Below, in pieces: positions 13,672 through 37,472 of a DNA stretch of 47,368 bases (positions are counted from its first letter, which is position 1; each line of letters opens with the position of its first letter). Source of the DNA: a virus; the IMG/VR virus record IMGVR_UViG_3300042484_000660, positions 1 to 47,368 of that record, one strand, 5' to 3'. Position numbers and translations under genes: made by a program. The notes under the pieces are model-generated. The model was given only the letters and a program-made list of their open reading frames with translations. It searched no databases and had not been told where the DNA came from.

Positions 13672-13714
13672 CGTAAGTTATTGTTTTAACTAAGGTTTTA
13701 TTTCGCAAAAAGGC

Positions 13715-13742
13715 TTGACTTATTGTCCGTTTATGCTATAAT
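13715..13742 (+). promoter_or_regulatory. Early promoter, AAGGC-TTGACT class
   Basis: TTGACT (13715-13720), 16 bases, extended TGC-TATAAT (13737-13742). It is the first full member of the repeated early promoter family and lies 17 bases before the 51-aa gene. Confidence 0.85.
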
Positions 13743-17184: not shown

Positions 17185-17226
17185 TAAGTTGTTGATTTAT
17201 AAAGAGTTTTTATTTTACCCAAAGGC

Positions 17227-17254
17227 TTGACATTTGGGTAGAATGTGCTATACT
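17227..17254 (+). promoter_or_regulatory. Early promoter, AAGGC-TTGACA class
   Basis: TTGACA (17227-17232), 16 bases, extended TGC-TATACT (17249-17254). The AT-rich segment upstream and the CCCAAAGGC lead-in are shared with the promoters at 29.7, 30.7, 34.8 and 35.2 kb. Confidence 0.85.
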
Positions 17255-22091: not shown

Positions 22092-22116
22092 TCATTATCT
22101 AAGGGATCATGTGTTC

Positions 22117-24942: not shown

Positions 24943-25416
24943 TTATTTTACTACGGTCATTTTAGGCTTTTTTGGCTTCTTGGGTTTTGGTTTCTTTTCT
25001 GGTGCTTTGCCGCCTTCCCAAGCTTCATTTACTTCAGGGGTAGCAGGGTTGTCAGCAACAAGTTTCCCGTTGTTTCTAGCTCTTTTGGGAGTAGCAGCAG
25101 GTTCGGGTTTAACTTCTGGTGTAGATTTCTTAATCTTTTTTGCAACCGTTTTGCCTTTTTCTACTGTTTCACTAATTTTAGTCTTAACAGTTTCAACAAC
25201 TACTTTAGCGTCATCTACATCTACTTTTCCATCTTTGTTAACATCAGCTACTGATGCTAAGCCTGATACAGATTTTTCTAAAGCTACAAAAAAATCTTTT
25301 ATATCAGTTTTTCCGTCATTGTTTAAATCAGTACTGGGTGCATCTTTGTTGCTTTTCCAAAACAAATATGCAACTGCTCCTATTACTACGATACCAATAA
25401 TACTTTCTATAATCAT
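24943..25416 (-). CDS. Membrane-anchored EF-hand/dockerin-like protein
   Basis: The 157-aa product has an N-terminal membrane segment (about 2-20), then two calcium-loop motifs, D-L-N-N-D-G-K-T-D-I-K-D-F and D-V-N-K-D-G-K-V-D-V-D-D-A, typical of dockerin/EF-hand pairs. A Lys/Pro-rich tail ends in K-P-K-P-K-K-P-K-K. The second ATG is used because the first is only one base from AGGAG. It may bind calcium at the cell surface or virion membrane; function unknown. Confidence 0.65.
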   Translation of the reverse strand: MIIESIIGIVVIGAVAYLFWKSNKDAPSTDLNNDGKTDIKDFFVALEKSVSGLASVADVNKDGKVDVDDAKVVVETVKTKISETVEKGKTVAKKIKKSTPEVKPEPAATPKRARNNGKLVADNPATPEVNEAWEGGKAPEKKPKPKKPKKPKMTVVK

Positions 25417-25437
25417 AAAGATCATCTCCTAAAACTA

Positions 25438-25444
25438 TATTTAG
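25438..25444 (-). promoter_or_regulatory. Late promoter box CTAAATA, minus strand
   Basis: Reads CTAAATA on the minus strand, 21 bases before the start of the EF-hand protein gene. Confidence 0.5.
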
Positions 25445-25475
25445 TTAATTATTGCATACTTTGTATTTTTATATT

Positions 25476-25483
25476 GATAAATA
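25476..25483 (+). promoter_or_regulatory. Late promoter box GATAAATA, near-leaderless
   Basis: GATAAATA with five bases to the ATG at 25489. The expected transcription start is at or beside the A of the ATG. Confidence 0.55.
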
Positions 25484-25488
25484 ATTGC

Positions 25489-25974
25489 ATGACTTCTAAA
25501 CTAATGCTACTAATGTCTGAACCTCTTCCAAGTCTTGTCTTGCAAAAAAAGCTATCATATAGAACTACCAAAAGAGAAGTAAGAGAACTTTATAACATTA
25601 TCAATGAAGAAATTTTCAACAACGAATTACCGCCTGCTAAGTTAGAAGTAAAAAGTCATTGTAGAGGATACTGGGGTATGTGTATGTCTACTGGATTCAA
25701 TCCTAAAAAGAAAAGTTCCCAATGTAAAATAAGACTGTCTGATAAATGGTATTGTAAACAATGGCTAATAAACACATTAGCACACGAAATGGCTCATCAG
25801 TATCAATGGGATGTGTACAGTAAAACAAGACATTTAGAAGGCAAATACCCCGTAATGAGTCATGGTCCTAGTTTCTATACATTTAGAAAACAACTTGCTA
25901 AATACGGACTTGTATTGAAAAGATCAAGCGGCATGAAAAGATGGTTTAGATATCAACGATTAGATAAGTGTTAA
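25489..25974 (+). CDS. SprT-like zinc metalloprotein
   Basis: This 161-aa protein contains H-E-M-A-H-Q-Y-Q-W, an H-E-x-x-H zinc site, and a later H-G-P-S-F, the third ligand region of SprT/Spartan-like proteins. The N-terminal part predicts a helical lead-in. ATG at 25489 is used because the frame upstream is occupied by the late promoter. In eukaryotes Spartan degrades DNA-protein crosslinks; the phage role is unknown. Confidence 0.78.
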   Translation: MTSKLMLLMSEPLPSLVLQKKLSYRTTKREVRELYNIINEEIFNNELPPAKLEVKSHCRGYWGMCMSTGFNPKKKSSQCKIRLSDKWYCKQWLINTLAHEMAHQYQWDVYSKTRHLEGKYPVMSHGPSFYTFRKQLAKYGLVLKRSSGMKRWFRYQRLDKC

Positions 25975-25982
25975 GATAAATA
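25975..25982 (+). promoter_or_regulatory. Late promoter box GATAAATA, four bases before an ATG
   Basis: GATAAATA-CATT-ATG overlaps the previous stop. The arrangement is the same as at 20537 and implies a leaderless message. Confidence 0.6.
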
Positions 25983-25986
25983 CATT

Positions 25987-27522
25987 ATGATTAGAAACTT
26001 ATTAAACACATTAGAATTATTAACCGAATCAACTGGTCTAGCGGGTAGAAAGCCCGGAGACGTTTTCCGCAATTCAGAAAATGACCAAATAGTATTCAAT
26101 AGTATACAGTTTTTTCCTGAAGGTGGCGGAAAACTAACCAAAGAAGAACTTGAGCAAACAGTAAATCAAGTTACGGATGGTATTGAAGTTCAGTGGACGA
26201 ACTCACCTTCAGCGAAATCTGGCGGATTTGCTATTGCATCTTTTTCTTCAGATCAAGGTGAATTATATTTTGGTAAATATTTTGAGCAGATAAAACCAAA
26301 CTTAACTAGTAATTTTTTCCCTAACAAAATAGGAGATTACTCTTTTGCAGGTAAAGCTGCTGCTAAAGCACAAGCAGGTTTATCACCACAAGATTTATTA
26401 TCTGACAAGATTGATTTAACTTCAGACGATATCATAAATCAACTAGCTACTAGTTTAGGTACAGACAATCCTCTATATACAGTGGCACGAAGAATAGCTA
26501 ATGGTGAAAAACTACCATTGCATTTTACTGCTCCTAGTGATGTAAGCTTTAGTGCGTTTAGAGATTACTTCTGCGAGATTTTACAACCAATGGCACTACA
26601 AACTGGAAACTATACAGGTAACGCAGGTGAAGCTGCCGAAGTGTTCATGGATGGATCATTTGCTGATACTCTTATCACGTTTGATACTAGTAAAACTGCT
26701 GGACTTAGTGATAGCATTCTAACCAATCCTCAAGGTAAGATTATAAAAATAAGTACTAAAGGCGGGGCTGGGGCTAAAGCAAGTGTTAAAAACTTGTTAG
26801 ATAGTGTTGAAGAAATGAAACAAACTCCAGCAGGTAGTAGATTAATAAGAAAGCATCAAGAAACTATTGGTTTATTAGAAGATATTAAAAGAGAAGGACA
26901 ATCAGGTGCCCCTTTGATGTTAGGAGTAAAATTTGGTATTATCAATGCCAAAGAAGCTAGTCAAATAGAAGACTTAAAAAATATGGCTCCTATAAACTTA
27001 AACGATATAGACAGTGTGGACATATCATCACGATTAAAGAAAATGGCGTTGAACAGAGGAACTAAAACTCCTGAAAACACTAGTTTATATTTTCATTTAT
27101 TAGCAGAAGTAGCACACAAAGCAGCAGATAAAGTTAACGATAATACTGACTTTCCAAAAGCTGCATCTGATATCTTAAACAACGGCGCATTAGTTCAAGT
27201 TTATACTAAAGCCAAAGAAGGTAAAGATACTTGGACTCTACAAGAATTCAACACTGTGTATCCAGGAGATTCTATTAAAGGTGTTTATCTTTCTGCTGGT
27301 AAAACTTATTACAGTACAGGCATAAAAGGAAACTTTACCTTTAAGATAGACAAAGGAGCGGGAGTTCCAAAAGAAGATAGTGAAGAAACTGCAAGTGCTG
27401 CAGGCAAGAAACCCGAAGTAAAACTAGATAAGGCAGCAAAACAAATCGCAACTGGCAGAGCTACTAGACCTGAAAAAGACAAGACAAAAACAGGTGATGT
27501 GGGTAGAGCCAAACGCAAGTAA
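25987..27522 (+). CDS. Large late protein with capsid-targeting-like N-terminus, 511 aa
   Basis: The product begins with an amphipathic 14-residue segment ending L12-T-E14 before Ser, matching the T4 gp21 cleavage rule. The rest is soluble, with a G-K-I-I-K-I-S-T-K-G-G-A-G-A-K-A segment near residue 255 and a Lys-rich tail (about 470-511). The D-S-I-L...I-S-T-K segment could belong to a PD-(D/E)xK-like nuclease fold, but I cannot show this. It has its own late promoter. Function unknown; head packaging is inferred. Confidence 0.6.
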   Translation: MIRNLLNTLELLTESTGLAGRKPGDVFRNSENDQIVFNSIQFFPEGGGKLTKEELEQTVNQVTDGIEVQWTNSPSAKSGGFAIASFSSDQGELYFGKYFEQIKPNLTSNFFPNKIGDYSFAGKAAAKAQAGLSPQDLLSDKIDLTSDDIINQLATSLGTDNPLYTVARRIANGEKLPLHFTAPSDVSFSAFRDYFCEILQPMALQTGNYTGNAGEAAEVFMDGSFADTLITFDTSKTAGLSDSILTNPQGKIIKISTKGGAGAKASVKNLLDSVEEMKQTPAGSRLIRKHQETIGLLEDIKREGQSGAPLMLGVKFGIINAKEASQIEDLKNMAPINLNDIDSVDISSRLKKMALNRGTKTPENTSLYFHLLAEVAHKAADKVNDNTDFPKAASDILNNGALVQVYTKAKEGKDTWTLQEFNTVYPGDSIKGVYLSAGKTYYSTGIKGNFTFKIDKGAGVPKEDSEETASAAGKKPEVKLDKAAKQIATGRATRPEKDKTKTGDVGRAKRK

Positions 27523-27534
27523 TCACCATTTATA

Positions 27535-27563
27535 TTGATTTACTAATCCTCTTAGTGTATTAT
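27535..27563 (+). promoter_or_regulatory. Sigma70-like promoter of clpP, inside a hairpin
   Basis: TTGATT (27535-27540), 17 bases, TATTAT (27558-27563). The -10 is within the loop of the hairpin at 27545-27593, so transcripts from this promoter would lack the left arm. Confidence 0.55.
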
Positions 27564-27593
27564 AGAATCTCACATAATATAACTAAGAGGATT
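27545..27593 (+). promoter_or_regulatory. 12-bp hairpin covering the clpP ribosome-binding site
   Basis: AATCCTCTTAGT (27545-27556) pairs perfectly with ACTAAGAGGATT (27582-27593), which contains the AAGAGG ribosome-binding site eight bases before the ATG. In read-through mRNA the site is closed; in mRNA from the promoter in the loop it is open. It could also act as an intrinsic terminator, since TTTT follows the stem. Confidence 0.65.
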
Positions 27594-27597
27594 TTTT

Positions 27598-28185
27598 ATG
27601 GCATTGATTCCCATTGTAATTGAACAAACTTCACGCGGTGAACGTAGTTACGACATTTATTCACGTTTGTTAAAAGATCGGGTAATACTACTTGAAGGTG
27701 AAGTTCATGATCAAATGGCTAACTTGATTGTAGCCCAGCTTTTGTTTCTGGAATCAGAAGATCCGGACAAAGACATCTTTCTTTATATAAATTCTCCCGG
27801 CGGCTCTGTTACTGCAGGCATGGCTATTTACGATACAATTCAGTTTATCAAACCAGATGTGAACACTATTGTAATGGGACAATCCTGTTCAATGGGATCA
27901 CTTTTAGCACAAGCTGGTTCTCCTGGTAAACGTAAAATTCTGCCCAATGCTCGTCATATGGTTCATCAGCCCTCCGGAGGTGCTCGTGGTCAAGCAACTG
28001 ATATGGAAATTCAAGTAAAAGAAATCTTGGCAATGAAGAAGTCTCTTACTGAAATCTATGTCAAGCATAACAGTAAAAATAAAACGTTTGAAGAATTAGC
28101 TAAGGACATGGAGCGAGACTTTTTTATGTCTGCTGCCGAAGCTGTTGAATATGGACTAGCAGACGAAGTAGTTACTAAGAGGTAA
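27598..28185 (+). CDS. clpP: ClpP serine protease
   Basis: This 195-aa protein is ClpP, the tetradecameric protease that works with ClpX or ClpA. The catalytic triad is complete: S98 in G-Q-S-C-S-M-G, H123 in M-V-H-Q-P and D174 in M-E-R-D. The length equals a processed bacterial ClpP, and there is no long propeptide. The sequence around Ser has C instead of the usual A-A (GQAASM). With ClpX and ClpS in the same region, the phage can field a complete protease. It starts 8 bases after AAGAGG, which is in a hairpin. Confidence 0.95.
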
Positions 28186-28883
28186 TGAAAATGAGCATAT
28201 GGTCTAATGTAATCGCAATCCCGTGGAACCAAGAAGATTCAATCTTTAGTGAGCCAAAACGAGCGAAAAAAGAACTGGGTTCACTATGTAAATATCAAAC
28301 AGTTCATCCTGATGATCAATTGCCCGTCAATGTTATTAACCCTGATATAGATAAAGGCCCTTGGATTGCAGGTGGAGCTTGTTTACGTTGGTTTCAAAAT
28401 ATTCCAGTTGGTGAACACAGCGACATAGATGTTTTTTGTAAAAATGAAAAACAAGCAGAAAAGCTAATAGACTATATTAAACATATTGGATTGTCGGACT
28501 ATAGCCATGGTCATTCGCATGTAGTTATAAAAACGGATAACGCATGTACGTTTAATATAAATGCAAATAATAAAAATTGGAAAGTACAAATAATTACTTG
28601 TAAGTATTTTGACACTATTAAAGAAGTTATTGATCACTTTGACATTAGTGTATGTCAAGTAGCTACAACTGGTAACGAATGGATTTTAGGTGAAATGACT
28701 GTTAAGGATATTAATAGTCATTCACTTAGATTTAATCATATTACTAAACAAGCGCCTAAAAGATTAATCAAGTATTGGACTTATGGATTTAATCCTGTAG
28801 AGGGTACAATAGAAGCTATTCAAGAATTTAAAGATTCTTCTTGGGATTTTGCTGGTGCTGATGATTACGACAATACACTTTAG
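28185..28883 (+). CDS. Nucleotidyltransferase-fold protein
   Basis: This 232-aa protein has the DNA polymerase beta-like nucleotidyltransferase core: G-G-A-C-L-R-W-F, then S-D-I-D-V-F (D-x-D) and a later H-F-D-I-S-V strand that supplies the third Asp. Such proteins add nucleotides to RNA, antibiotics or proteins. It overlaps clpP by one base (TAATG). The substrate is not predictable; phage members of this fold are common and unstudied. Confidence 0.72.
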   Translation: MKMSIWSNVIAIPWNQEDSIFSEPKRAKKELGSLCKYQTVHPDDQLPVNVINPDIDKGPWIAGGACLRWFQNIPVGEHSDIDVFCKNEKQAEKLIDYIKHIGLSDYSHGHSHVVIKTDNACTFNINANNKNWKVQIITCKYFDTIKEVIDHFDISVCQVATTGNEWILGEMTVKDINSHSLRFNHITKQAPKRLIKYWTYGFNPVEGTIEAIQEFKDSSWDFAGADDYDNTL

Positions 28884-28891
28884 GGGTTAAC

Positions 28892-29281
28892 ATGTCAGCA
28901 GAAAAAGCTTGGAGTTTGTTAGATAATAGACCAGTTTTAAAATACGTTCCACAATGCGATGATTATATTGTATATTGGAATGGTATAGTAATGCCTCATA
29001 AAATGGCTCTTTGTTTTGGCGGTACATTGTTAAACATTTATCCTACTCCAGAGATGAGGCGAGAATTAAATCTTAACTACCGAAAACTTTACTATGCTAA
29101 TGCGTTTGAAACATTAGGTAAATGGGATCACATACTAGATGGAAGAAAAGAGCATGAACAAAGAGATATGCATGGCTTTCTTTTTAGATACATAGAAAAG
29201 CACCTGAATACTCTTAAAGAACAAAAGATTTCAGGTGCAGAAGTTTTGGGATGGTTTGACTATAAACGAGTTACTAGTTAA
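28892..29281 (+). CDS. Hypothetical protein, 129 aa
   Basis: A soluble, Tyr/Trp-rich protein with no motif I recognise. It converges with the speD-like gene, overlapping its stop by eight bases. GGGG before the start could serve as ribosome-binding site. Confidence 0.55.
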   Translation: MSAEKAWSLLDNRPVLKYVPQCDDYIVYWNGIVMPHKMALCFGGTLLNIYPTPEMRRELNLNYRKLYYANAFETLGKWDHILDGRKEHEQRDMHGFLFRYIEKHLNTLKEQKISGAEVLGWFDYKRVTS

Positions 29282-29645
29282 CAGAGATTTCTGTTAATCC
29301 ATGTTCTCTGTCTAGATACTTGTATTCTAGTTTAACTGGTTCAAACTGTTCTAGTTCTTTAAAGATAATATCGGTATCTAACTGGCCACAAGTGTACACA
29401 TCCATTTGAATCAAACTAGGACTTCCCTCATCCCAAACATGTATAGCCATATGACTAGTTTCAATTACTACAACCGCAGTTACCCCTCTATTGCCGGGAA
29501 CGTCAACATATGCGCTGATAGGTCCCATGCAGATTTTCATACCAATTTTACCTGTCAACTCTTTTAACCAGTTAATAACCCATTCAGGGTCACGGGGTGG
29601 GTTATTAATTTCTGCTCTAATAATCAAATGTTTGTGTACTAGCAT
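29274..29645 (-). CDS. speD: S-adenosylmethionine decarboxylase-like (SpeD)
   Basis: This 123-aa minus-strand protein has the SpeD core: the self-cleaving serine S64 before H65, the following A-I-H-V-W and the Cys of T-C-G (C86). SpeD makes decarboxylated SAM for spermidine synthesis, via a pyruvoyl group formed by cleavage at the serine. The usual Glu before that Ser is Thr here (E-T-S-H). Cyanophages also carry speD. It has AAGGAG upstream and a minus-strand late promoter. Confidence 0.85.
   Translation of the reverse strand: MLVHKHLIIRAEINNPPRDPEWVINWLKELTGKIGMKICMGPISAYVDVPGNRGVTAVVVIETSHMAIHVWDEGSPSLIQMDVYTCGQLDTDIIFKELEQFEPVKLEYKYLDREHGLTEISVN
29278..29297. terminator. Hairpin at the junction of two convergent genes
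   Basis: TTAACAGA and TCTGTTAA form a perfect 8-bp stem with a GATT loop, spanning the two stop codons. It could act as a weak bidirectional terminator; no T-run follows on either strand. Confidence 0.4.
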
Positions 29646-29673
29646 ATTGCATAACTCCTTGAAAGATAAAGAT

Positions 29674-29681
29674 TATTTATG
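29674..29681 (-). promoter_or_regulatory. Late promoter box CATAAATA of speD, minus strand
   Basis: Minus-strand CATAAATA lies 28 bases before the speD start codon. Confidence 0.5.
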
Positions 29682-29731
29682 AGTTTTCGTAAGTCATTGA
29701 TTTTATTAGAGTTTTATTTTTACCCAAAGGC

Positions 29732-29759
29732 TTGACATTTGGGTATAATGTGCTATTAT
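29732..29759 (+). promoter_or_regulatory. Early promoter of MORN-like gene
   Basis: TTGACA (29732-29737), 16 bases, extended TGC-TATTAT (29754-29759), followed by the shared leader AGTCAACGAAAAGGAGC at 29768-29784. Confidence 0.85.
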
Positions 29760-29792
29760 ATACACATAGTCAACGAAAAGGAGCACGAATGC

Positions 29793-30263
29793 ATGAAAAA
29801 ATATCAAGTAAAAGTACATGACAACGGCGACCGTTTTTGGTATGTCAATGGCAAACGTCACCGCGAAGACGGCCCTGCTATCGAAGGGGTTAATGGCTAT
29901 CGTGCTTGGTGGGTAAACGGCAAACCACACAGAACAGATGGCCCTGCTTTCGAATATACTACCGGGGTCCGCGTTTGGTACTTCAACGGCAAACTTCACC
30001 GCGAAAACGGCCCTGCTTGCGAATATGCTAGTAGCCGTTTTTGGGTAGTCGACGGCAAACGTCACCGCACAGACGGGCCTGCTGTGGAATGTACTAACGG
30101 AGACCGCGCGTGGTATGTCAACGATAAACGGCACCGCGTAGACGGCCCTGCTCGTGAATGGGCTAATGGCAGTTGTGAGTGGTATATCAACGGCAAAGAG
30201 CTGACCGAACAAGAATTCAATAACTACACCAACCGGGTTCAGATAGTTAGTAAAAAGGCTTGA
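29793..30263 (+). CDS. MORN-like repeat protein
   Basis: This 156-aa protein is made of about seven near-identical repeats with the core W-Y-V-N-G-K-R-H-R-x-D-G-P-A, a variant of MORN/toxin-antitoxin YwqK-like repeats. ATG at 29793 follows AAAGGAGC. The repeat proteins form extended beta sheets that bind membranes or other proteins. The last two codons and stop (AAG GCT TGA) form part of the next promoter. Function unknown; early expression. Confidence 0.75.
   Translation: MKKYQVKVHDNGDRFWYVNGKRHREDGPAIEGVNGYRAWWVNGKPHRTDGPAFEYTTGVRVWYFNGKLHRENGPACEYASSRFWVVDGKRHRTDGPAVECTNGDRAWYVNDKRHRVDGPAREWANGSCEWYINGKELTEQEFNNYTNRVQIVSKKA
29820..30190 (+). repeat. Tandem DNA repeats encoding the MORN-like units
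   Basis: Repeats of about 57 bases each, centred on GGCAAAC-(N)-CACCGC and ACGGCCCTGCT, encode the W-Y-V-N-G-K-R-H-R-x-D-G-P-A units. The copies differ in a few bases. Confidence 0.7.
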
Positions 30264-30287
30264 CTTCTTACCCAAACCTGCTATAAT
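30260..30287 (+). promoter_or_regulatory. Early promoter whose -35 contains a stop codon
   Basis: TTGACT (30260-30265), 16 bases, extended TGC-TATAAT (30282-30287). TGA in the -35 ends the MORN-like gene. The shared leader follows at 30296-30312. Confidence 0.9.
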
Positions 30288-30317
30288 TACTTCATAGTCA
30301 ACGAAAAGGAGCGCGAA

Positions 30318-30692
30318 ATGTCTAAAGCAAAAAGCAAGTTTCAGTTCTACTCTGATCCCGGTCATGGTTGGTTGCGCGTTCCTTATAGCGAATTGGAACG
30401 TCTTGATATTGCTGACAAAATTACTCATTACAGCTATACCAAGGGCGATAACGTGTTTCTTGAGGAAGACTGTGATATGTCTACCTACATGAAAGCCAAA
30501 AATGCTTTGAATGAAAAAGTTGATATTCAAGTTATTCGCTGCAACCGTCAGAGCCGAATTCGCAGCTATAATAGCTATGGCGGTGCTCGTATGGTTACTC
30601 GCAAAAATCTTATGTCAGGTAAAGAGTTTCAGGAACGCGCTGATACCCCGCTGTGCTGCTCCCCTGCTTCGGAAACGTATTGGTCAATGTAA
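30318..30692 (+). CDS. Conserved phage protein, 124 aa
   Basis: The N-terminal half contains G-H-G-W-L-R-V-P-Y-S-E-L and Y-S-Y-T-K-G-D-N-V-F-L-E-E-D-C-D, a pattern widespread in phage early genes of unknown role. The rest is basic with several Arg. It is a single-gene unit between two early promoters with the shared ribosome-binding leader. Confidence 0.65.
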   Translation: MSKAKSKFQFYSDPGHGWLRVPYSELERLDIADKITHYSYTKGDNVFLEEDCDMSTYMKAKNALNEKVDIQVIRCNRQSRIRSYNSYGGARMVTRKNLMSGKEFQERADTPLCCSPASETYWSM

Positions 30693-30731
30693 GTTGTTGA
30701 TTTTCAAAGAGTTTTATTTTCAGCCAAAGGC

Positions 30732-30759
30732 TTGACTCTTTACCCAAATACTGTATACT
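30732..30759 (+). promoter_or_regulatory. Early promoter
   Basis: TTGACT (30732-30737), 16 bases, TATACT (30754-30759), with the shared leader at 30768-30784. The AT-rich lead-in matches those at 17.2 and 29.7 kb. Confidence 0.85.
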
Positions 30760-30789
30760 AATCATATAGTCAACGAAAAGGAGCAACAA

Positions 30790-31284
30790 ATGAAACTCGT
30801 AATTCAGACTCAAGTTCGTGAAAACTACGGTGCGCATGATTGGGACGGTAAAGGTGAGTGCCCGCAGCATTGGAAGTGCAAGGGCGGCGACACTTATGTA
30901 GTACCCAATCTCACGGTTACGCAAGTTCTCAAGATCAAGGATACGGGTATTCCTACTCTTAAGTCTTTGGTTGAGACTAGCAACGAGAGTTTTCAAGAGT
31001 ATGTGATTGATTGGTCAATCATGGACGATGATGCTACTGTGTGCGAAGAATGGGAAACCCCGTTTGAACTGTTCTATGAGCAGGGTCGCTGGGTCGCTAG
31101 GCGCACTGTTATGAATGACGCATACGGATATATGCGTCAGGAAGTTGCTTTTAAAACCGAGCAGTATGATATGCAGACCGGTGGCGAACGCGCAAACTAC
31201 GATGTTTCATATACCTTCAGGGACGGGCGTGTTCTGGGATATAATGATACTTGCAAAGCTTTGAAAGAGCTTAACGCGGCTTGA
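30790..31284 (+). CDS. Conserved phage protein, 164 aa
   Basis: It begins K-L-V-I-Q-T-Q-V-R-E-N-Y-G-A-H-D-W-D-G-K-G, a pattern I have seen in early proteins of other phages, with no assigned function. The protein is acidic with an aromatic-rich middle. Its stop (TGA) lies in the -35 element of the next promoter. Confidence 0.65.
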   Translation: MKLVIQTQVRENYGAHDWDGKGECPQHWKCKGGDTYVVPNLTVTQVLKIKDTGIPTLKSLVETSNESFQEYVIDWSIMDDDATVCEEWETPFELFYEQGRWVARRTVMNDAYGYMRQEVAFKTEQYDMQTGGERANYDVSYTFRDGRVLGYNDTCKALKELNAA

Positions 31285-31308
31285 CATTCTACCCAGATAG
31301 TGTATAAT
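31281..31308 (+). promoter_or_regulatory. Early promoter whose -35 contains a stop codon
   Basis: TTGACA (31281-31286), 16 bases, TATAAT (31303-31308), shared leader at 31317-31332. The TGA ends the preceding gene. Confidence 0.88.
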
Positions 31309-31339
31309 TATCTTATAGTCAACGAAAGGAGCAAGACAG

Positions 31340-31573
31340 ATGACCATCAAAGATAATACACTGGTTGCTTTTGATGGGAAGCGTAGGATTGCAGTGGCTC
31401 GTAAAAAACAGCACGGATGGCTGGTTGTGGCCGATGCTGCATGTTGGCTAGAGACAAAAGATAAGAAAAATGTTTTTGGCATTATGAATCACAGCATGAT
31501 ACTTGTTAAAAATAAATCTGAAGCAAAAAAGTTAATTGATTCAGTAAAATCATACACTAGAGGAGCAAGATAA
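31340..31573 (+). CDS. Small hypothetical protein, 77 aa
   Basis: A basic protein with two Trp in a beta-rich N-terminal half. No motif recognised. It is the first gene of a chain of overlapping genes, TAATG to the next, driven by the promoter at 31281. Confidence 0.55.
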   Translation: MTIKDNTLVAFDGKRRIAVARKKQHGWLVVADAACWLETKDKKNVFGIMNHSMILVKNKSEAKKLIDSVKSYTRGAR

Positions 31574-31836
31574 TGAGCAATGTTACTGATATCCGTGTAG
31601 GTGATCGTGTACGCTGGGAGTGTCATGCAGGTACCATGCGTGGAGAGATTACATCTATTGATCTGGATCTGAACGCCAATCAAGAATTGATTCCCTGGAT
31701 CACGATTAAAACTTTTGCACATGAATATTATGGTTTAGAGAAACATGTGCGACTCTGCGGTACTCACGGCTACTTGAAAATGATGAAATTTCAGGTAAAC
31801 TTTCGTGATGTTGAAAAGCAAAAGGTAGCATTTTAA
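31573..31836 (+). CDS. Small hypothetical protein, 87 aa
   Basis: The N-terminal segment V-G-D-R-V-R-W-E-C-x-x-G-T-M-R-G-E-I looks like a small SH3/KOW-like beta barrel. Role unknown. Coupled on both sides by TAATG. Confidence 0.5.
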   Translation: MSNVTDIRVGDRVRWECHAGTMRGEITSIDLDLNANQELIPWITIKTFAHEYYGLEKHVRLCGTHGYLKMMKFQVNFRDVEKQKVAF

Positions 31837-32261
31837 TGCCCAAAATCATCAACATATCTTACGCACAAGCTGAGTCAGGTGACTACCCTCATCCTGGTGA
31901 TAGCTATCTGATTCAGATTACTGATCCAGGTACCCCTGCTCCTGTTACTGCGCATAGCTATGTTGCCAAGCACCATTTTCAGTTTCATGATGCTGAAGAC
32001 AACGAGGGCGCTGGAGAATTTCCTTTCGTGCCCAAAAAGCTGATCACAGATGCTCAGGCTCTGGAGATCATAGAAATCTTGGAACTTGCTTTGTTCTACA
32101 AACGCCATGTGATAGTACATTGCCATGCTGGATTGTGCCGTAGCGGGGCAGTAGCAGAAGTCGGAGTTATGATGGGCTTTGAAGACACTAAGCGTGTTAG
32201 AATGCCCAATCTTTTAGTAAAGAATAAACTAAAGAAGGTATTGGGCTGGACTTATGAGTGA
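31836..32261 (+). CDS. Dual-specificity/tyrosine phosphatase-like protein
   Basis: This 141-aa protein carries the C-x5-R phosphatase loop, C96-H-A-G-L-C-R102-S after V-I-V-H. A general-acid Asp may be D52 or D55 upstream. Such enzymes remove phosphate from Tyr, Ser or Thr, or from small molecules. It is in the early array, so it could alter a host signalling protein; this is inference. The next gene overlaps by eight bases. Confidence 0.78.
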   Translation: MPKIINISYAQAESGDYPHPGDSYLIQITDPGTPAPVTAHSYVAKHHFQFHDAEDNEGAGEFPFVPKKLITDAQALEIIEILELALFYKRHVIVHCHAGLCRSGAVAEVGVMMGFEDTKRVRMPNLLVKNKLKKVLGWTYE

Positions 32262-32517
32262 GAAAATGGATTGGCGTGATATACTAAAACAAATGATAGA
32301 ACAGGCTGCTGAAGGTAACTATGATCATCTTGATAAAAGTGAGCCACGAGTGATCGTTATTCCGCAAGGTGCTGAAGACTCTGTGATTGATTTTTTATCT
32401 GAATTAGGTAAACTAGAATTTGAAATGCCTGAACTGGATGCTATTGACACTGAAATTGAAAACCTGATTGACGCTGGTAAGTTTGTGGCGTTTGAGGATG
32501 AAGAGAGGATTCACTAA
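32254..32517 (+). CDS. Small acidic protein, 87 aa
   Basis: Very acidic, probably helical, with V-I-V-I-P-Q-G-A-E-D-S. It overlaps the phosphatase by eight bases and the next gene by one. Role unknown. Confidence 0.5.
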   Translation: MSEKMDWRDILKQMIEQAAEGNYDHLDKSEPRVIVIPQGAEDSVIDFLSELGKLEFEMPELDAIDTEIENLIDAGKFVAFEDEERIH

Positions 32518-32756
32518 TGAGTAATCGCGTATTTAAAGTTTGGATCAACAACAGAGGTGATTGGATAGTAGTATCTGATGCTCGTGATGTCAGTGAAGGT
32601 AGACCGCATGCCGCTGTGTTTCCTTTTGGTGATCTTTATGATAAAGAAACACAAACGCGCAGGGCACATGATTATGCTACTTATTTAAACAAACTAAACG
32701 AAGCTGCTAAAGTAGCTTACGATCAAATACACTTAGTGGATGTGTTAAAACGATGA
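32517..32756 (+). CDS. Small hypothetical protein, 79 aa
   Basis: Begins with beta strands W-I-N-N-R-G-D-W-I-V-V-S-D-A and ends in a helix. TAATG coupling. Its end lies in the 57-base direct repeat at 32737-32793. Function unknown. Confidence 0.5.
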   Translation: MSNRVFKVWINNRGDWIVVSDARDVSEGRPHAAVFPFGDLYDKETQTRRAHDYATYLNKLNEAAKVAYDQIHLVDVLKR

Positions 32757-32793
32757 ACGAACGAATTAGAGAACTTGCTGAACAAGCAAATGT
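32737..32793 (+). repeat. Direct repeat copy A, at the start of the SGNH gene
   Basis: This 57-base segment covers the 5' flank and first 13 codons of the SGNH gene. It repeats at 33853-33909 with 51 of 57 bases identical and no gap. Confidence 0.88.
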
Positions 32794-33811
32794 CCGGGAC
32801 AGCAGTAGTGTAGCAAGATTACCAAAAACATGTCCCTATCCAGCTAATAGAGTAAATCTTTGGAATTGGTATGATTTTACAACATTTGGGGAAGCTCTTA
32901 CGTCATTTAAATGGTACTGTACAAGGGATGATGAACAGACATTCAGAAAAAACTCCTTAAAGAATGCTTTAGTGCCGAGTAATAAAACATATGGCGAAAA
33001 TGACATAGTATATTCCTATACCTCTAGAGGGCATCGCGCAGGTTGCGCCCCTTCAGAATTTGAAGATGCCCGAAAATATAAAACTTTGATGGTAAGTGGA
33101 TGCTCATTAACTGAAGGGATTGGCTTGCCGGAAGACCACATTTGGCATAGTTTTTTGACTGACATGATTTGCACACAAATTAGTGCACCTATAGCAAAAT
33201 TAAATTTAGGGAAGGGAGGTAGAAGCTTAGATGCAGCTATACGATATGTGTATACTGCAATTGAGCATGATAATGCTAGTCCTGATATGGTTTATTTTTT
33301 ATTTCCACCTGTTACTAGAAAAGAATTAATAATAACTGACGATAAAAATATACCGTATATTTGGCATTATTTAGGTTATTTGCGTCCCGGCGCATCGCAC
33401 ATCGCGACAGCAGCTCACGAAGCGATGACAAAAAATATTAACTACAGACAATTATACCATGACTGTTTTCGTAGTCTACTGTTCATCAAATATTTTTTAC
33501 AATCTAAAAATATACCGTGGTTCTTTAGTTTTTGGGGTAATGACCTTAGTGCTTATAATATAGCCGCTCACACCGAAGATACAAATATAGATTGTTCTAT
33601 ACCTGAAGAATTACAGAATCACTACATTGATGCTCATCTACGAGACAAAACGCTATATGAAAATTTGTTTGTTCAAACGATAGCAAGAGACTACGTTCAT
33701 CCGGGCCCCAATGAACATTATGATTTGGCTAAGCAGATGTACCAACAATTACAATCTAATACAACTTTTATTGAAATAATTAACAAATGGAAAAAAGATG
33801 AAAACAAATAA
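32753..33811 (+). CDS. SGNH hydrolase-like protein with acquired N-terminus
   Basis: This 352-aa protein has an SGNH/GDSL-like G-C-S-L-T-E-G block near residue 118 and, near the C-terminus, D-Y-V-H-P-G-P-N-E-H-Y (D-x-x-H). These fit the Ser nucleophile and Asp-His pair of the SGNH esterase/acyltransferase family, although the consensus GDS is GCS. The first 14 residues come from the next gene's N-terminus, so the cargo was fused in frame. Possible role: acyl or sugar esterase acting on cell-surface glycans. The rest of the gene shows no other recognisable domain. Confidence 0.65.
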   Translation: MNERIRELAEQANVRDSSSVARLPKTCPYPANRVNLWNWYDFTTFGEALTSFKWYCTRDDEQTFRKNSLKNALVPSNKTYGENDIVYSYTSRGHRAGCAPSEFEDARKYKTLMVSGCSLTEGIGLPEDHIWHSFLTDMICTQISAPIAKLNLGKGGRSLDAAIRYVYTAIEHDNASPDMVYFLFPPVTRKELIITDDKNIPYIWHYLGYLRPGASHIATAAHEAMTKNINYRQLYHDCFRSLLFIKYFLQSKNIPWFFSFWGNDLSAYNIAAHTEDTNIDCSIPEELQNHYIDAHLRDKTLYENLFVQTIARDYVHPGPNEHYDLAKQMYQQLQSNTTFIEIINKWKKDENK

Positions 33812-33852
33812 AAAACATTGGTATTATGCGAGGATAGTTTTAATTATGGAAT

Positions 33853-33909
33853 TGGATGTGATAAAGCGATGAACGAACGAATTTTAGAAATTGCTAAACA
33901 AGCAAATGT
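33853..33909 (+). repeat. Direct repeat copy B, at the start of the 81-aa gene
   Basis: Second copy of the 57-base repeat of 32737-32793; it contains the start of the intact small gene. The two copies flank the SGNH gene. Confidence 0.88.
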
Positions 33910-34114
33910 GTTGGCGGATTTTGGCGATGACATCACTGTGGGTAGATACTCAATTGGTGGAAGTTACGAACAGATGGAACAGTTCGCCGAGTTGATTGTG
34001 AAAGAATGTGTAAATGTTGTGGACGGTGGAAGTTTTCTACATGACCAAGCACCTACTGCTATATTTGCCAAAGAATGTAGTGCTGCGATTAAAAGACATT
34101 TTGATATTAAATGA
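33869..34114 (+). CDS. Small phage protein of the ELA...KFAELIVKEC type, 81 aa
   Basis: The product starts N-E-R-I-L-E-I-A-K-Q-A-N and has F-A-E-L-I-V-K-E-C in the middle, resembling a very common but uncharacterised class of small phage proteins. ATG at 33869 is chosen; earlier in-frame starts lie in the repeat flank. It is probably the original owner of the N-terminus now also on the SGNH protein. Confidence 0.6.
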   Translation: MNERILEIAKQANVLADFGDDITVGRYSIGGSYEQMEQFAELIVKECVNVVDGGSFLHDQAPTAIFAKECSAAIKRHFDIK

Positions 34115-34335
34115 TCCTAAAGCGTAGGCATGTTGCCAAAGCTATAAGTTGGCGAATAATAGGTTCAATTGACAGTTTACTAATTGCATGGTTAGTAACT
34201 GGTAGTTTTGAATTAGGTGCGATACTGGGAGGAGCAAAGTTAGTAACTGCTACAGTATGGTACTACATGCACGAAAGAATATGGTATAAATACATTAAAT
34301 TTGGTATAACAAATAAACAAAGTGAGGATATATGA
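34111..34335 (+). CDS. DUF2061-like membrane protein
   Basis: This 74-aa protein begins with R-R-H-V-A-K-A-I-S-W-R-I-I-G-S and has W-Y-Y-M-H-E-R-I-W-Y-K, which I recognise as the DUF2061 two-helix membrane family. Two hydrophobic segments (about 16-32 and 36-52) are present. The function is unknown; such proteins occur in phages and in bacteria. ATGA overlap on both sides. Confidence 0.75.
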   Translation: MILKRRHVAKAISWRIIGSIDSLLIAWLVTGSFELGAILGGAKLVTATVWYYMHERIWYKYIKFGITNKQSEDI

Positions 34336-34547
34336 ACAACTATTTTCCTGATATGGAAAACCCTTGGGTACGCAGACCTCTTATTATTTTGATGGCATTG
34401 TGTGCTGCTCCCTTTCTGTTACTACTGATTGTTGCTGAGGTGCTTTGGGAAACAGCAAAGGCCATGGTTGGGATTATAAGAAATCAGATTAAAGAAACAG
34501 CACCCACTTTTAAAAATATCGTTGATCAGATCAAGGAAACTTGGTAA
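34332..34547 (+). CDS. Small single-pass membrane protein, 71 aa
   Basis: A hydrophobic segment (about 15-40) precedes an amphipathic helix. It overlaps the DUF2061-like gene. Role unknown; it could be in the host inner membrane. Confidence 0.55.
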   Translation: MNNYFPDMENPWVRRPLIILMALCAAPFLLLLIVAEVLWETAKAMVGIIRNQIKETAPTFKNIVDQIKETW

Positions 34548-34585
34548 CCAACTAAGTCATTGATTTTATTAGGATTGCTAAACAT

Positions 34586-34638
34586 AACCTGAAACTGTAA
34601 GTGATTGATTTCATTACAGTTTCAGGTTTTTCTTTTTT
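34586..34638 (+). terminator. Strong rho-independent terminator
   Basis: A perfect 15-bp stem (34586-34600 with 34614-34628), 13-base loop and TTTCTTTTTT (34629-34638). It ends the operon from 31.3 kb. Confidence 0.9.
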
Positions 34639-34782
34639 ACAGCAGCATCAACACTCACATAAGTATCCTAGATGTTGAGCAGGTAACGTAAGCTATTGAT
34701 TCTTTGTTAAAAATCTCTTTATAAATCAACAACTTAGCTTAGTGGTTTCTTTAAAATAATAGAAAATATCTTAGCCAAAGGC

Positions 34783-34810
34783 TTGACTCTTTGCCCAAAT
34801 GTGCTATAAT
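34783..34810 (+). promoter_or_regulatory. Early promoter
   Basis: TTGACT (34783-34788), 16 bases, extended TGC-TATAAT (34805-34810). The leader differs from the others (CACGAAGAAA). Confidence 0.88.
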
Positions 34811-34845
34811 AACTACATATAGCAAACAACACGAAGAAATCAGAC

Positions 34846-35115
34846 ATGAAAAGTTACGCATCAGCAATTAACCGTATCATCAAAAATGTTACCGGTCTGA
34901 CAGTTGCCAAAACTCGCAGAGACAACTTTAACTACGGTGATTATCGCGGGTATAAATATCGCGTTTATGATAATCGGTCAACCAGGACTGGTCCCTGGAC
35001 CCCGGACATCAGCAAAGCTGAGGCGAATACTATAGCCGCTCAGATTCGGAATCTGGGACCTGGACTGAAAGTAACTGTGTATGAAGGTGATGTTACTGTA
35101 ACTCAGACTGTATAA
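34846..35115 (+). CDS. Small basic protein, 89 aa
   Basis: Basic N-terminus with Y-R-G-Y-K-Y-R-V-Y-D-N-R and a C-terminal helix-strand. No motif recognised. It is a single-gene unit behind the promoter at 34783. Confidence 0.6.
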   Translation: MKSYASAINRIIKNVTGLTVAKTRRDNFNYGDYRGYKYRVYDNRSTRTGPWTPDISKAEANTIAAQIRNLGPGLKVTVYEGDVTVTQTV

Positions 35116-35155
35116 AAGCACTGATTTCCTTAGGAAAATTATTTCACCCAAAGGC

Positions 35156-35183
35156 TTGACTTCTTACCCAAATATGCTATAAT
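35156..35183 (+). promoter_or_regulatory. Early promoter
   Basis: TTGACT (35156-35161), 16 bases, extended TGC-TATAAT (35178-35183). The leader after it is ACAAATTGAGAAAAGGAGC, shared with the unit at 35565. Confidence 0.9.
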
Positions 35184-35214
35184 AGCTATACAAATTGAGA
35201 AAAGGAGCAGTAAA

Positions 35215-35568
35215 ATGATTTCAGAAAAAGCGTATATCACTAATCGTTTTCAGCGTGACTTGGTAAGCGTACAAGCCGAGATTGCTGAATTTACTGCTAA
35301 AATGGCAGTTGATGCTGCTTATACTCTTACTTGGGGTATTTCAGTTTTTCAAGCTGCCGCCAAAGAACGTGTGTTAAAACAAGTACTTGAAAGCATTGAA
35401 CAAGGTGACGATATAGTTTCTATCGTTACTGATCGCGTTATTCATAAAGCCAAGTACCCAGCACAAAGTACTTTACCAACTTCAAATCTTATTGAACAGT
35501 ATGAATTGGCTGCACTGGCTGAAGTATTGAGCGCAATTAAAGACGTTCAGGAGTTCAATAAGGCTTGA
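35215..35568 (+). CDS. Hypothetical early protein, 117 aa
   Basis: A helical, Ala/Glu-rich protein with no motif recognised. Its stop TGA lies in the -35 of the next promoter, after AAG GCT. It is a single-gene unit. Confidence 0.6.
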   Translation: MISEKAYITNRFQRDLVSVQAEIAEFTAKMAVDAAYTLTWGISVFQAAAKERVLKQVLESIEQGDDIVSIVTDRVIHKAKYPAQSTLPTSNLIEQYELAALAEVLSAIKDVQEFNKA

Positions 35569-35592
35569 CATTTGGGTAATTTCTGCTATAAT
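35565..35592 (+). promoter_or_regulatory. Early promoter whose -35 contains a stop codon
   Basis: TTGACA (35565-35570), 16 bases, extended TGC-TATAAT (35587-35592). The TGA ends the previous gene. Leader as at 35189. Confidence 0.9.
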
Positions 35593-35625
35593 AGCTATAC
35601 AAATTGAGAAAAGGAGCGAGTCTAG

Positions 35626-35982
35626 ATGTCATACAAAGTTTACCAGCTTAAGATTGCAAGACAAGTGTACGATTACGTTAATGAAGTCGGACACGCTGAA
35701 GCTGCTGTTAAATACCCCGAATATAAAGTTTCAATGGACATCCGCTTTCAAGGTTCTGCTAAGTGGGAACCATCAATGTTCGCCTACTTTACCCCCGTGT
35801 GTGAAATTGCCGCTAGTGACTTAGATGAAGTATTTCATGTCGGTAATGTCGGTCCTGAAGCAAAAATAGTTCGCCTTGACCGTATGCATTCTGTCAGTGT
35901 CGGCGATATCATCCAAGATCCAACCGGTGAGTTTCACATGGTTGACGATTTCGGTTTCAACAAAATTCAAGTACTGATCTAA
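35626..35982 (+). CDS. Conserved phage protein, 118 aa
   Basis: The C-terminal half has V-F-H-V-G-N-V-G, then R-L-D-R-M-H-S-V-S-V-G-D-I-I and a D-D-F-G-F end, a pattern found in early proteins of many phages and resembling the YodL-like family. The role is unknown. It is a single-gene unit between two AAGGCTTGAC elements. Confidence 0.62.
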   Translation: MSYKVYQLKIARQVYDYVNEVGHAEAAVKYPEYKVSMDIRFQGSAKWEPSMFAYFTPVCEIAASDLDEVFHVGNVGPEAKIVRLDRMHSVSVGDIIQDPTGEFHMVDDFGFNKIQVLI

Positions 35983-35987
35983 AAGGC

Positions 35988-35993
35988 TTGACT
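35988..35993 (+). promoter_or_regulatory. Orphan -35 element, remnant of the early promoter
   Basis: AAAAGGC-TTGACT (35988-35993) is identical to the other units but no TATAAT follows at the expected 16 bases; instead AAAATAAAGAGG directly precedes the next gene. The gene after it is probably read from upstream. Confidence 0.5.
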
Positions 35994-36013
35994 AAAATAA
36001 AGAGGATCAAATT

Positions 36014-36193
36014 ATGATTACAGTCAAATTTTATGTAAAGAAAGAAACCTACGAGTTCACCGCTGAGTCCATTGGTAAGGCGATGGAAATGTGTAACCGT
36101 CAGGTTATTGACAAGTTGGATTTGCATCCCATGGTATGGGCTGATGCTGGTAAGAATGAATTTGTATGTCAGCCCGGCAACTTTTTTGATTAA
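36014..36193 (+). CDS. Small hypothetical protein, 59 aa
   Basis: ATG with AGAGGA upstream. The product begins I-T-V-K-F-Y-V-K-K and contains a Met-rich helix. It has no promoter of its own and is followed by the next early promoter, so it may be cotranscribed with the gene at 35626. Function unknown. Confidence 0.55.
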   Translation: MITVKFYVKKETYEFTAESIGKAMEMCNRQVIDKLDLHPMVWADAGKNEFVCQPGNFFD

Positions 36194-36196
36194 GGC

Positions 36197-36224
36197 TTGA
36201 CTTCTTGCCCAAATCTGCTATAAT
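36197..36224 (+). promoter_or_regulatory. Early promoter
   Basis: TTGACT (36197-36202), 16 bases, extended TGC-TATAAT (36219-36224). The previous stop (TAA) is directly upstream and a shared leader variant is at 36233-36249. Confidence 0.9.
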
Positions 36225-36256
36225 AGCTTTATAGTCAACGAACAGGAGCAAACAGC

Positions 36257-36478
36257 ATGACAGACTACTCAAAACGCACTCCATTCACACGACACGGTGG
36301 TGCTTATGATCGTGGTGCAGCAGATGCTTTTTACGGTCGCCCTTATACGCCCCATTACTTTACTGGTGCTACTTACTCTTCAACTAAGATTGAAGAAGTA
36401 GACATGAGTGCTGAAGAAGTGGCTGCATACAAGCAGGGCTATGCTGACAATGCTGATAACCGAAAGGAGTGGAACTAA
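36257..36478 (+). CDS. Conserved small phage protein, 73 aa
   Basis: R-G-A-A-D-A-F-Y-G-R-x-Y-x-P-H-Y and A-A-Y-K-Q-G-Y-A-D-N match a small family common in early phage regions. It is basic and aromatic. Function unknown. It is followed by the next gene without a promoter. Confidence 0.62.
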   Translation: MTDYSKRTPFTRHGGAYDRGAADAFYGRPYTPHYFTGATYSSTKIEEVDMSAEEVAAYKQGYADNADNRKEWN

Positions 36479-36479
36479 C

Positions 36480-36716
36480 ATGAACTGGAACTTGGAAGGT
36501 CTTCGCGTTAAGGGTCGTTACATGGATTCGGTAAATGTAAGCGGTGTGGTCAAACTCAGCCGTGTAGCATTTGGCGGTGAAGTTCAGCATCATGTTACAG
36601 TTGACAAAGGGTTTTCCCTGTTTAAGGGCGCAGTAAAGCGCGATGCAGGCGAAACTGTAATCCTGGAACACAAGTTTATTACTCAAGTTTTTAGCAGCCT
36701 TAACGAGTTTATCTAA
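36480..36716 (+). CDS. Hypothetical protein, 78 aa
   Basis: ATG at 36480 has AAAGGAG about ten bases upstream. The product is beta-rich with repeated V-x-G-V-V-K. No motif recognised. A longer frame from 36408 overlaps the previous gene and is unlikely. Confidence 0.55.
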   Translation: MNWNLEGLRVKGRYMDSVNVSGVVKLSRVAFGGEVQHHVTVDKGFSLFKGAVKRDAGETVILEHKFITQVFSSLNEFI

Positions 36717-36717
36717 T

Positions 36718-37047
36718 ATGATAGCAGTTAAAGAAGTTACTCTTTGGGATATGGAAAGCCAGCCCAATCACATCTATCTGTTAGATGGTGACAAGATCAT
36801 GGCTTACATACCCATGGGTAAAACTGAGCCTACTTATCTTAACCGCCCTATGAGAATAGACCAGCGTGGCCGCAAGTTTCAAGAACTAAAGATCAGCCCT
36901 TTCAAAGCACAAGTAAAGTCAACACTGATTGAAATCAAAGGTAGCAAGGGCAACAGTTATTGGGTGGACCCAGACAAAAGTACCTGCTCTTGTCCAGCGT
37001 TTAAGTTTGGCAAAGGTACTTGCAAACATATCAAAGAGGTGTTATAA
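36718..37047 (+). CDS. SWIM zinc-finger protein
   Basis: The C-terminal 30 residues carry C-S-C-P-A-F-K-F-G-K-G-T-C-K-H, the C-x-C-x(n)-C-x-H SWIM motif, which binds DNA or proteins. The N-terminal 80 residues are beta-rich. Its stop lies in the -10 of the next promoter. Role unknown, but a DNA-binding or host-control function is plausible. Confidence 0.72.
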   Translation: MIAVKEVTLWDMESQPNHIYLLDGDKIMAYIPMGKTEPTYLNRPMRIDQRGRKFQELKISPFKAQVKSTLIEIKGSKGNSYWVDPDKSTCSCPAFKFGKGTCKHIKEVL

Positions 37048-37048
37048 T
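37020..37048 (+). promoter_or_regulatory. Possible promoter overlapping the SWIM gene end
   Basis: TTGCAA (37020-37025), 17 bases, TATAAT (37043-37048). The -10 is eight bases before the next ATG, so any mRNA from it would be leaderless. Weak evidence. Confidence 0.4.
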
Positions 37049-37055
37049 ACTTGTT

Positions 37056-37472
37056 ATGACCATGCATCTTATTAAGGGCGTATGTACTTTAAGTACACGC
37101 AAGCCCAAGCAAAAAATCACAAAGGCTAAACAGGCTCAGCTAGTGCAAGACTTCAAAGAGTATAATAAATTCTTGAAGTCCAAGCACATGGCTAAAATTA
37201 CTTTTGAAGAATATGTTGACCAAGTATTTGGTAGGGTAACTAAAGAGAAAAAGAAAACAGAAACCTTTGTGAGTAATATCCCGACAACTTACCGTGCTAA
37301 TACATACGCTAGTATAACGGGTACTGGTTTGGCTGTCTGTTCAAAGCAACAACCGCAAACATATTCAGGTGAACAAAAACTCTTGGGTATTGCTACCCTC
37401 CACAAGTCTAACATGGTTCCTGTGTTTGCTAAACAAGATGCAGTAGATATTGCTAATATGCGTAGAAACTAA
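37056..37472 (+). CDS. Conserved phage protein, 138 aa
   Basis: H-L-I-K-G-V-C-T-L-S-T-R-K-P-K-x-K, then Y-N-K-F-L-K-x-K-H-M, F-E-E-Y-V-D and a C-terminal A-T-L-H-K-S-N-M-V-P-V-F match a family that is widespread in phages, with no known function. It is basic. It precedes the metallophosphoesterase by one base. Confidence 0.68.
   Translation: MTMHLIKGVCTLSTRKPKQKITKAKQAQLVQDFKEYNKFLKSKHMAKITFEEYVDQVFGRVTKEKKKTETFVSNIPTTYRANTYASITGTGLAVCSKQQPQTYSGEQKLLGIATLHKSNMVPVFAKQDAVDIANMRRN

Follow-up and report, generated by a model that had tools for sequence, protein, structure and literature searches.

Promoter linkers as probable exchange joints between small-gene cassettes of a jumbo phage

Why would a phage place nearly the same promoter ahead of one small gene after another? 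The question is raised by the IMG/VR record IMGVR_UViG_3300042484_000660, analyzed here at its entire length of 47,368 bases (the window), in which eight such promoters lie between positions 29,732 and 36,224 and two more at 13715 and 17227. This window represents one end of an uncultured jumbo phage of ~267 kb; where tested, it matches the first ~47 kb of G001 (IMGVR_UViG_3300042997_002652, 266,967 bases), which has the opposite reading direction, at 98–100% identity. All relatives used for comparison (G022, G023, G025, G026, G032, and G033 among them) are metagenome contigs. The answer that we consider quite probable is that the phage carries three arrays of exchangeable cassettes, each of a single gene or a few genes, joined by a standard promoter linker.

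All ten promoters listed in the earlier note are present on the + strand as TTGAC[A/T], a spacer of exactly 16 bases, and a TATAAT-like box. The -10 box, described there as mostly TATAAT, has that form in seven promoters and reads TATACT at 17227 and 30732 and TATTAT at 29732, while the TGC said to precede it in most cases is found in eight, with plain TG at 30732 and 31281. The AAGGC ahead of TTGAC holds at nine of the ten sites and fails at 31281, which reads GCGGC. Both leader types were recovered as well, GTCAACGAA at 29769, 30297, 30769, 31318, and 36234, and ACAAATTGAGAAAAGGAGC at promoters 35156 and 35565. The likeness summed up in that note as almost identical promoters is therefore real, and it was understated, since a motif in the spacer and a helically phased box upstream are conserved too. 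With at most one mismatch, the pattern GGCTTGAC-N17-TATAAT has ten forward and no reverse matches in the window, and the reversed control pattern has none; the family is thus not a product of chance. G001 contains 24 family promoters in total, on one strand only and with none in the controls, in three clusters at 11–33 kb (the window), 121–134 kb, and 166–168 kb.

The consensus of 43 unique promoters from G001 and its relatives is AAAGGC-TTGACT-TCTTACCCAAATCTGC-TATAAT-A. The spacer motif is of the CCCAAA type in 30 of these promoters and of the inverse TTTGGG type in five; both orientations occur, as they might for an operator. At 29721–29745 and 17216–17240, a perfect inverted repeat, TACCCAAA-N9-TTTGGGTA, surrounds the -35 box. 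Outside the family, a scan for the CCCAAA spacer matched at least 119 stretches in 60 clusters, whereas the reversed control matched 41 in 27; as a general feature the motif was rejected, because its enrichment in unbiased sets disappeared after deduplication, and conservation is claimed inside the promoter family alone. The GGC-promoter-CCCAAA pattern is present as well in gut Clostridia and relatives (contigs L384-L390). In short, gapless linkers the TGA within TTGAC is itself the stop codon of the preceding open reading frame (ORF), as at 30263, 31284, and 35568, and AAGGCTTGAC at 35983, which has no -10 box, looks like the remnant of a linker joint.

The genes behind these promoters differ between relatives. 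Contig G023 covers the array locus and keeps the backbone at 27598–29281, 31573–34547 (except two genes), and 36480–37472, the main blocks being 77–86% identical to the window. Four cassettes at 29732–31573 are swapped in it for others, and five at 34783–36478 for three others. None of the nine first-in-cassette genes is conserved in G023, versus 12 of 14 backbone genes (Fisher p=7e-5), a count that excludes the opposite-strand gene 29274–29645, likewise not conserved. At the 17227 locus, what lies between the conserved flanks varies: two genes with one promoter in the window, five with one in G032, and several with three promoters in G033. Homologues of cassette genes also occupy different arrays in different phages (for example, array 1 in G023 and array 2 in G001), and in several promoters the best partner of the upstream half is not that of the downstream half. 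The earlier note had taken repeats of this size for likely sites of recombination, had proposed a search among related phages for swaps bounded by the promoter, and would have given the idea up had no variation been seen there. Variation was found: with flanks in place, cassettes differ in G023, G032, G033, G022, G025, and G026, and one crossover can be located.

That crossover emerges from G022 and G025, which share a 97%-identical gene on either side of the junction, with G025 carrying an additional cassette of 74 amino acids between its promoters 3171 and 3463. Upstream, the sole G022 promoter, 2724, matches G025_3171 at 60 of 60 bases; in the core (29 of 29) and downstream (42 of 48 bases) it matches G025_3463. 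On this alignment it must be a hybrid, the switch therefore falling within the shared AAGGCTTGACT of the -35 region, and the event reads as a single cassette precisely gained or lost. It could be objected that the linkers are merely strong sigma70 promoters whose likeness is maintained by selection for host RNA polymerase, and that the turnover is general mosaicism with breakpoints there because these regions are intergenic. Small genes do turn over everywhere in phage genomes, and several intergenic regions outside the family likewise vary between relatives. However, the likeness of the linkers exceeds the contacts of RNA polymerase, as it includes AAGGC, the CCCAAA of the spacer, the leader, and the upstream box; in addition, the crossover within AAGGCTTGACT, the different partners of promoter halves, and the far lower conservation of first-in-cassette genes than of same-region neighbors all make general mosaicism an improbable account.

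The upstream box is the second conserved component. Longer linkers open with TAAGTYRTTGATTT right after the stop codon of the upstream gene, or including it, typically 42 bp before TTGAC. With at most one mismatch, TAAGTTATTGATTT occurs at 18 sites in G001 against 0.7 expected, nearly all of them inside the arrays. In distant phages with homologues of the protein encoded at 30790–31284, two variants of the box have 30 and 25 matches against 1.9 and 1.3 expected (2 and 0 for the reversed-box controls), whereas in two other phage sets scanned the box is absent or nearly so. The reverse complement of TAAGTTATTGATTT fits the IHF consensus WATCAANNNNTTR, as quoted in PMC7581858, with the A/T-rich flank included and upstream of the promoter. 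A literature search for the box sequence returned nothing relevant. Since the box ends each longer cassette, at times paired in inverted orientation or as a hairpin, and since integrase genes in bacteria have a similar sequence beside them, it might instead be the site of an integron-like, site-specific recombinase acting on the linkers. This we consider very unlikely: integron-like recombination is set aside because the single crossover that could be located is in the -35 box and not in the upstream box, and many swapped cassettes have short linkers that are box-less.

The position of the box relative to the promoter follows the turn of the helix. In IMG/VR, at least 121 promoters of the sigma70 type were found to have the box 27–57 bp ahead of them. 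Among the matches listed, the distances from box to -35 in 81 deduplicated, non-redundant promoters cluster at 31, 41–42, and 51–53 bp (Rayleigh R=0.594, p=4e-13 at a 10.5-bp period); under stricter, gapped deduplication, again among the matches listed, 67 promoters remain, 56 in phase and 7 out (R=0.56, p=6e-10). When 845 promoters were collected irrespective of the box, 11 had an IHF-consensus site at 27–57 bp, also phased (p=4e-4), and two control patterns had no match over the same 845. The phasing is not accounted for by the copying of a single linker, as the distances are whole turns apart.

Taken together, a linker consists of a stop codon, the TAAGTYRTTGATTT box (in longer linkers only), an A/T-rich stretch that is probably an UP element, AAGGC-TTGAC-N16-TGC-TATAAT, a short leader with a ribosome-binding site, and ATG. 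Homologous recombination between such linkers would add, delete, and swap genes, and any incoming gene could be expressed at once, its linker supplying both promoter and ribosome-binding site. Host sigma70 RNA polymerase would transcribe the cassettes early in infection, and host IHF, or a protein that shares its site, would bend the DNA about 60–80 bp upstream of the start, as at lambda PL. Searches of the phage for a multisubunit RNA-polymerase gene and for an IHF/HU-family gene found neither, with positive controls in both cases; host sigma70 polymerase is thus the probable reader, and the bending protein would be the host's. The cassette genes are therefore probably driven by host sigma70 polymerase and host IHF or an IHF-like factor. 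The host was sought through promoter matches in bacterial genomes, where a strict pattern had none and a looser one nine, scattered and uninformative.

Several points weigh against this arrangement. Transcription, factor binding, and timing are deduced from sequence, early expression in particular being judged from promoter type and gene content alone, and the event in G022 and G025 is readable as either gain or loss. The compared genomes are metagenome assemblies, so the hybrid promoter might in principle have been produced by chimeric assembly. Indeed, assemblies do break at linkers (the end of G031 falls inside promoter 29732, and G026 starts at a promoter), and both the hybrid and the missing cassettes might then be artefacts of repeated sequence. 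We give this little credence, as the cassette differences recur across contigs of several independent samples with flanks 70–97% identical, and the G022 hybrid also shows strain-specific differences downstream, unlike both putative parents. Furthermore, short linkers are without the TAAGTYRTTGATTT box, and the box itself is tighter than the E. coli consensus WATCAANNNNTTR, its NNNN being nearly always GTYA or GTYR; sites with another NNNN show no phasing.

This last property bears on the least certain step, the identity of the protein at the box, and leaves the cassettes themselves untouched. Another sequence-specific protein of host or phage could occupy the site, with the phasing then reflecting its contact with RNA polymerase, as IHF demands neither the fixed NNNN nor the bias of the 3' bases. 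In 398 Pseudomonadota genomes, the GTYA form gave 45 matches against 5 for the reversed control; its excess in bacterial genomes is greater than that of generic IHF-consensus sites (72 against 25), which also favors another protein. All IHF consensus bases are matched, however, and the A/T-rich side lies where IHF needs it; some of the bacterial boxes adjoin integrase, plasmid-replication, or tRNA genes, which are common places for IHF, and helical phasing is typical of bending proteins. Because the NNNN of the box is more specific than in the textbook consensus, IHF is likely and not certain; we lean toward it modestly, and hold a different protein to be a serious but less probable candidate.

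Among known systems, the closest are the promoter-early stem-loops (PeSLs) of T4-type phages, reportedly treated by Arbiol in 2010 and Comeau in 2014. PeSLs are described in PMC4503421. In both systems, plastic regions hold small non-essential genes with a strong sigma70-like promoter recurring between them (here judged by sequence and strand bias), and close relatives differ at the element in gene gain, loss, and replacement, with recombination between copies proposed. A further mark of PeSLs is the formation of small DNA circles when neighboring copies exchange. The stem-loop terminator that defines PeSLs, however, is no regular part of the linkers described here: a terminator scan gave 5 terminator-like sites against 5.9 expected by chance, and of 25 linkers folded only three reached z ≤ -3 (B3159, B6272, and B13943), the hairpin at 34586–34628 being a further exception. 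Moreover, many linkers abut the preceding gene, with its stop inside the -35 box; the linker family also has a conserved motif in the spacer and an IHF-type box in helical phase, and the carrier is a jumbo phage with TerL closest to that of the PA5oct-type phages of Pseudomonas (49%). Because the stem-loop is not a regular part, the arrays are better called a PeSL-like variant than PeSLs.

The DNA polymerase is nearest to that of a Sinorhizobium jumbo phage (50%), and a megablast search of INPHARED for near-identical phage records had no match. PA5oct is the isolate whose TerL is nearest; its first 50 kb contains small-gene arrays with real hairpin terminators, but no member of the promoter family and no copy of the box. 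At 25024–35418 of PA5oct (L224), a AAAGGAAAGGGG...CCCCTTTCCTTT hairpin is repeated between small genes, along with repeats containing TTCTTATTTGCA; the linker system of this isolate is thus another one.

Lambda PL is a single promoter with its IHF site farther upstream. It shares with the linkers a sigma70 phage promoter, an IHF-consensus site ahead of it, and A/T-rich DNA between, but here the site lies within a repeated linker at dozens of dissimilar phage promoters, about 31, 42, or 52 bp before the -35 box. IHF stimulates lambda PL from its upstream site (Giladi 1998, as cited in PMC1784095 and PMC2753651). Integrons likewise consist of arrays of single exchangeable genes with a common element between, whereas here each cassette has its own promoter and the crossover fits homologous recombination; no integron integrase or attC site was identified, with no search made for a phage recombinase or integrase gene.

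Table 1. Promoters, IHF-type boxes, and cassette genes of the arrays (positions in the window)
Feature	Position	Strand	Remarks
IHF-type box	13674..13687	+	TAAGTTATTGTTTT; 41 bp before TTGAC
Family promoter	13715..13742	+	TTGACT-N16-TATAAT; spacer without CCCAAA
IHF-type box	17185..17198	+	42 bp before TTGAC
Family promoter	17227..17254	+	inverted spacer motif TTTGGGTA; genes behind differ in G032, G033
IHF-type box	29690..29703	+	42 bp before TTGAC
Family promoter	29732..29759	+	inverted spacer motif; with upstream TACCCAAA, perfect inverted repeat 29721-29745
Cassette ORF	29793..30263	+	156 aa; repeated NGK-HRxDGPA units; distant homologues in G022
Family promoter	30260..30287	+	CCCAAA spacer; its TGA ends preceding ORF
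Cassette ORF	30318..30692	+	124 aa; no family match
IHF-type box	30690..30703	+	42 bp before TTGAC; TAA in box is stop of preceding ORF
Family promoter	30732..30759	+	CCCAAA spacer
Cassette ORF	30790..31284	+	164 aa
Family promoter	31281..31308	+	GCGGC upstream; spacer CCCAGA; its TGA ends preceding ORF
Cassette ORF	31340..31573	+	77 aa
IHF-type box	34553..34566	+	directly behind ORF ending 34547
Strong terminator-like hairpin and T-run	34586..34639	+	IHF-type box 34598-34611 in loop
Inverted pair of IHF-type boxes	34689..34736	.	boxes at 34689 (+) and 34736 (-), ahead of promoter 34783
Family promoter	34783..34810	+	CCCAAA spacer; G023 homology stops at its -10
Cassette ORF	34846..35115	+	89 aa
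Family promoter	35156..35183	+	CCCAAA spacer
Cassette ORF	35215..35568	+	117 aa; weak match to phrog_11723
Family promoter	35565..35592	+	inverted spacer motif; its TGA ends preceding ORF
Cassette ORF	35626..35982	+	118 aa
Apparently vestigial joint	35983..35992	+	AAGGCTTGAC; no -10 box
Cassette ORF	36014..36193	+	59 aa; behind vestigial joint
Family promoter	36197..36224	+	CCCAAA spacer
Cassette ORF	36257..36478	+	73 aa; G033 homologue at 17227 locus

The cassette protein encoded at 30790–31284 (Table 1) has about 600 relatives in IMG/VR, is missing from G023, and has one weak match only among phage isolates. Its AlphaFold model is confident (pLDDT 93.6) and had no significant match in fold searches of PDB and BFVD, so it is possibly a new fold. 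Adjoining the first cassette, the opposite-strand gene 29274–29645 encodes an S-adenosylmethionine decarboxylase (PF02675) not found in G023. A phage-encoded ClpX-like ATPase with a ClpX zinc finger and a ClpP protease are located at 22111–23322 and 27598–28185. Two other small proteins are a dual-specificity-phosphatase-like one at 31836–32261, with hundreds of relatives in other phages, and a SWIM zinc-finger one at 36718–37047, kept in one relative.

New here are the second box, TAAGTYRTTGATTT, in the longer linkers and its phasing to the promoter. In the broadest terms, many aquatic Pseudomonadota phages may share one expression joint, an IHF-type box at whole turns (about 31, 42, and 52 bp) before a consensus sigma70 promoter, that, because it is alike everywhere, doubles as the crossover point moving small takeover genes between genomes and phage lineages; for this generalization we see the balance as even. 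The arrays described here provide a nucleotide-level case of the trade in accessory genes among phages, with the promoter acting as both expression signal and recombination joint. The spacing of box and promoter (about 31, 42, or 52 bp) offers a simple signature for finding cassettes in metagenomes, and unknown host-takeover or anti-defense genes could therefore be collected and tested. The phasing, in turn, makes a role of IHF, or of an IHF-like protein, at the promoters of lytic phages directly testable with reporters.

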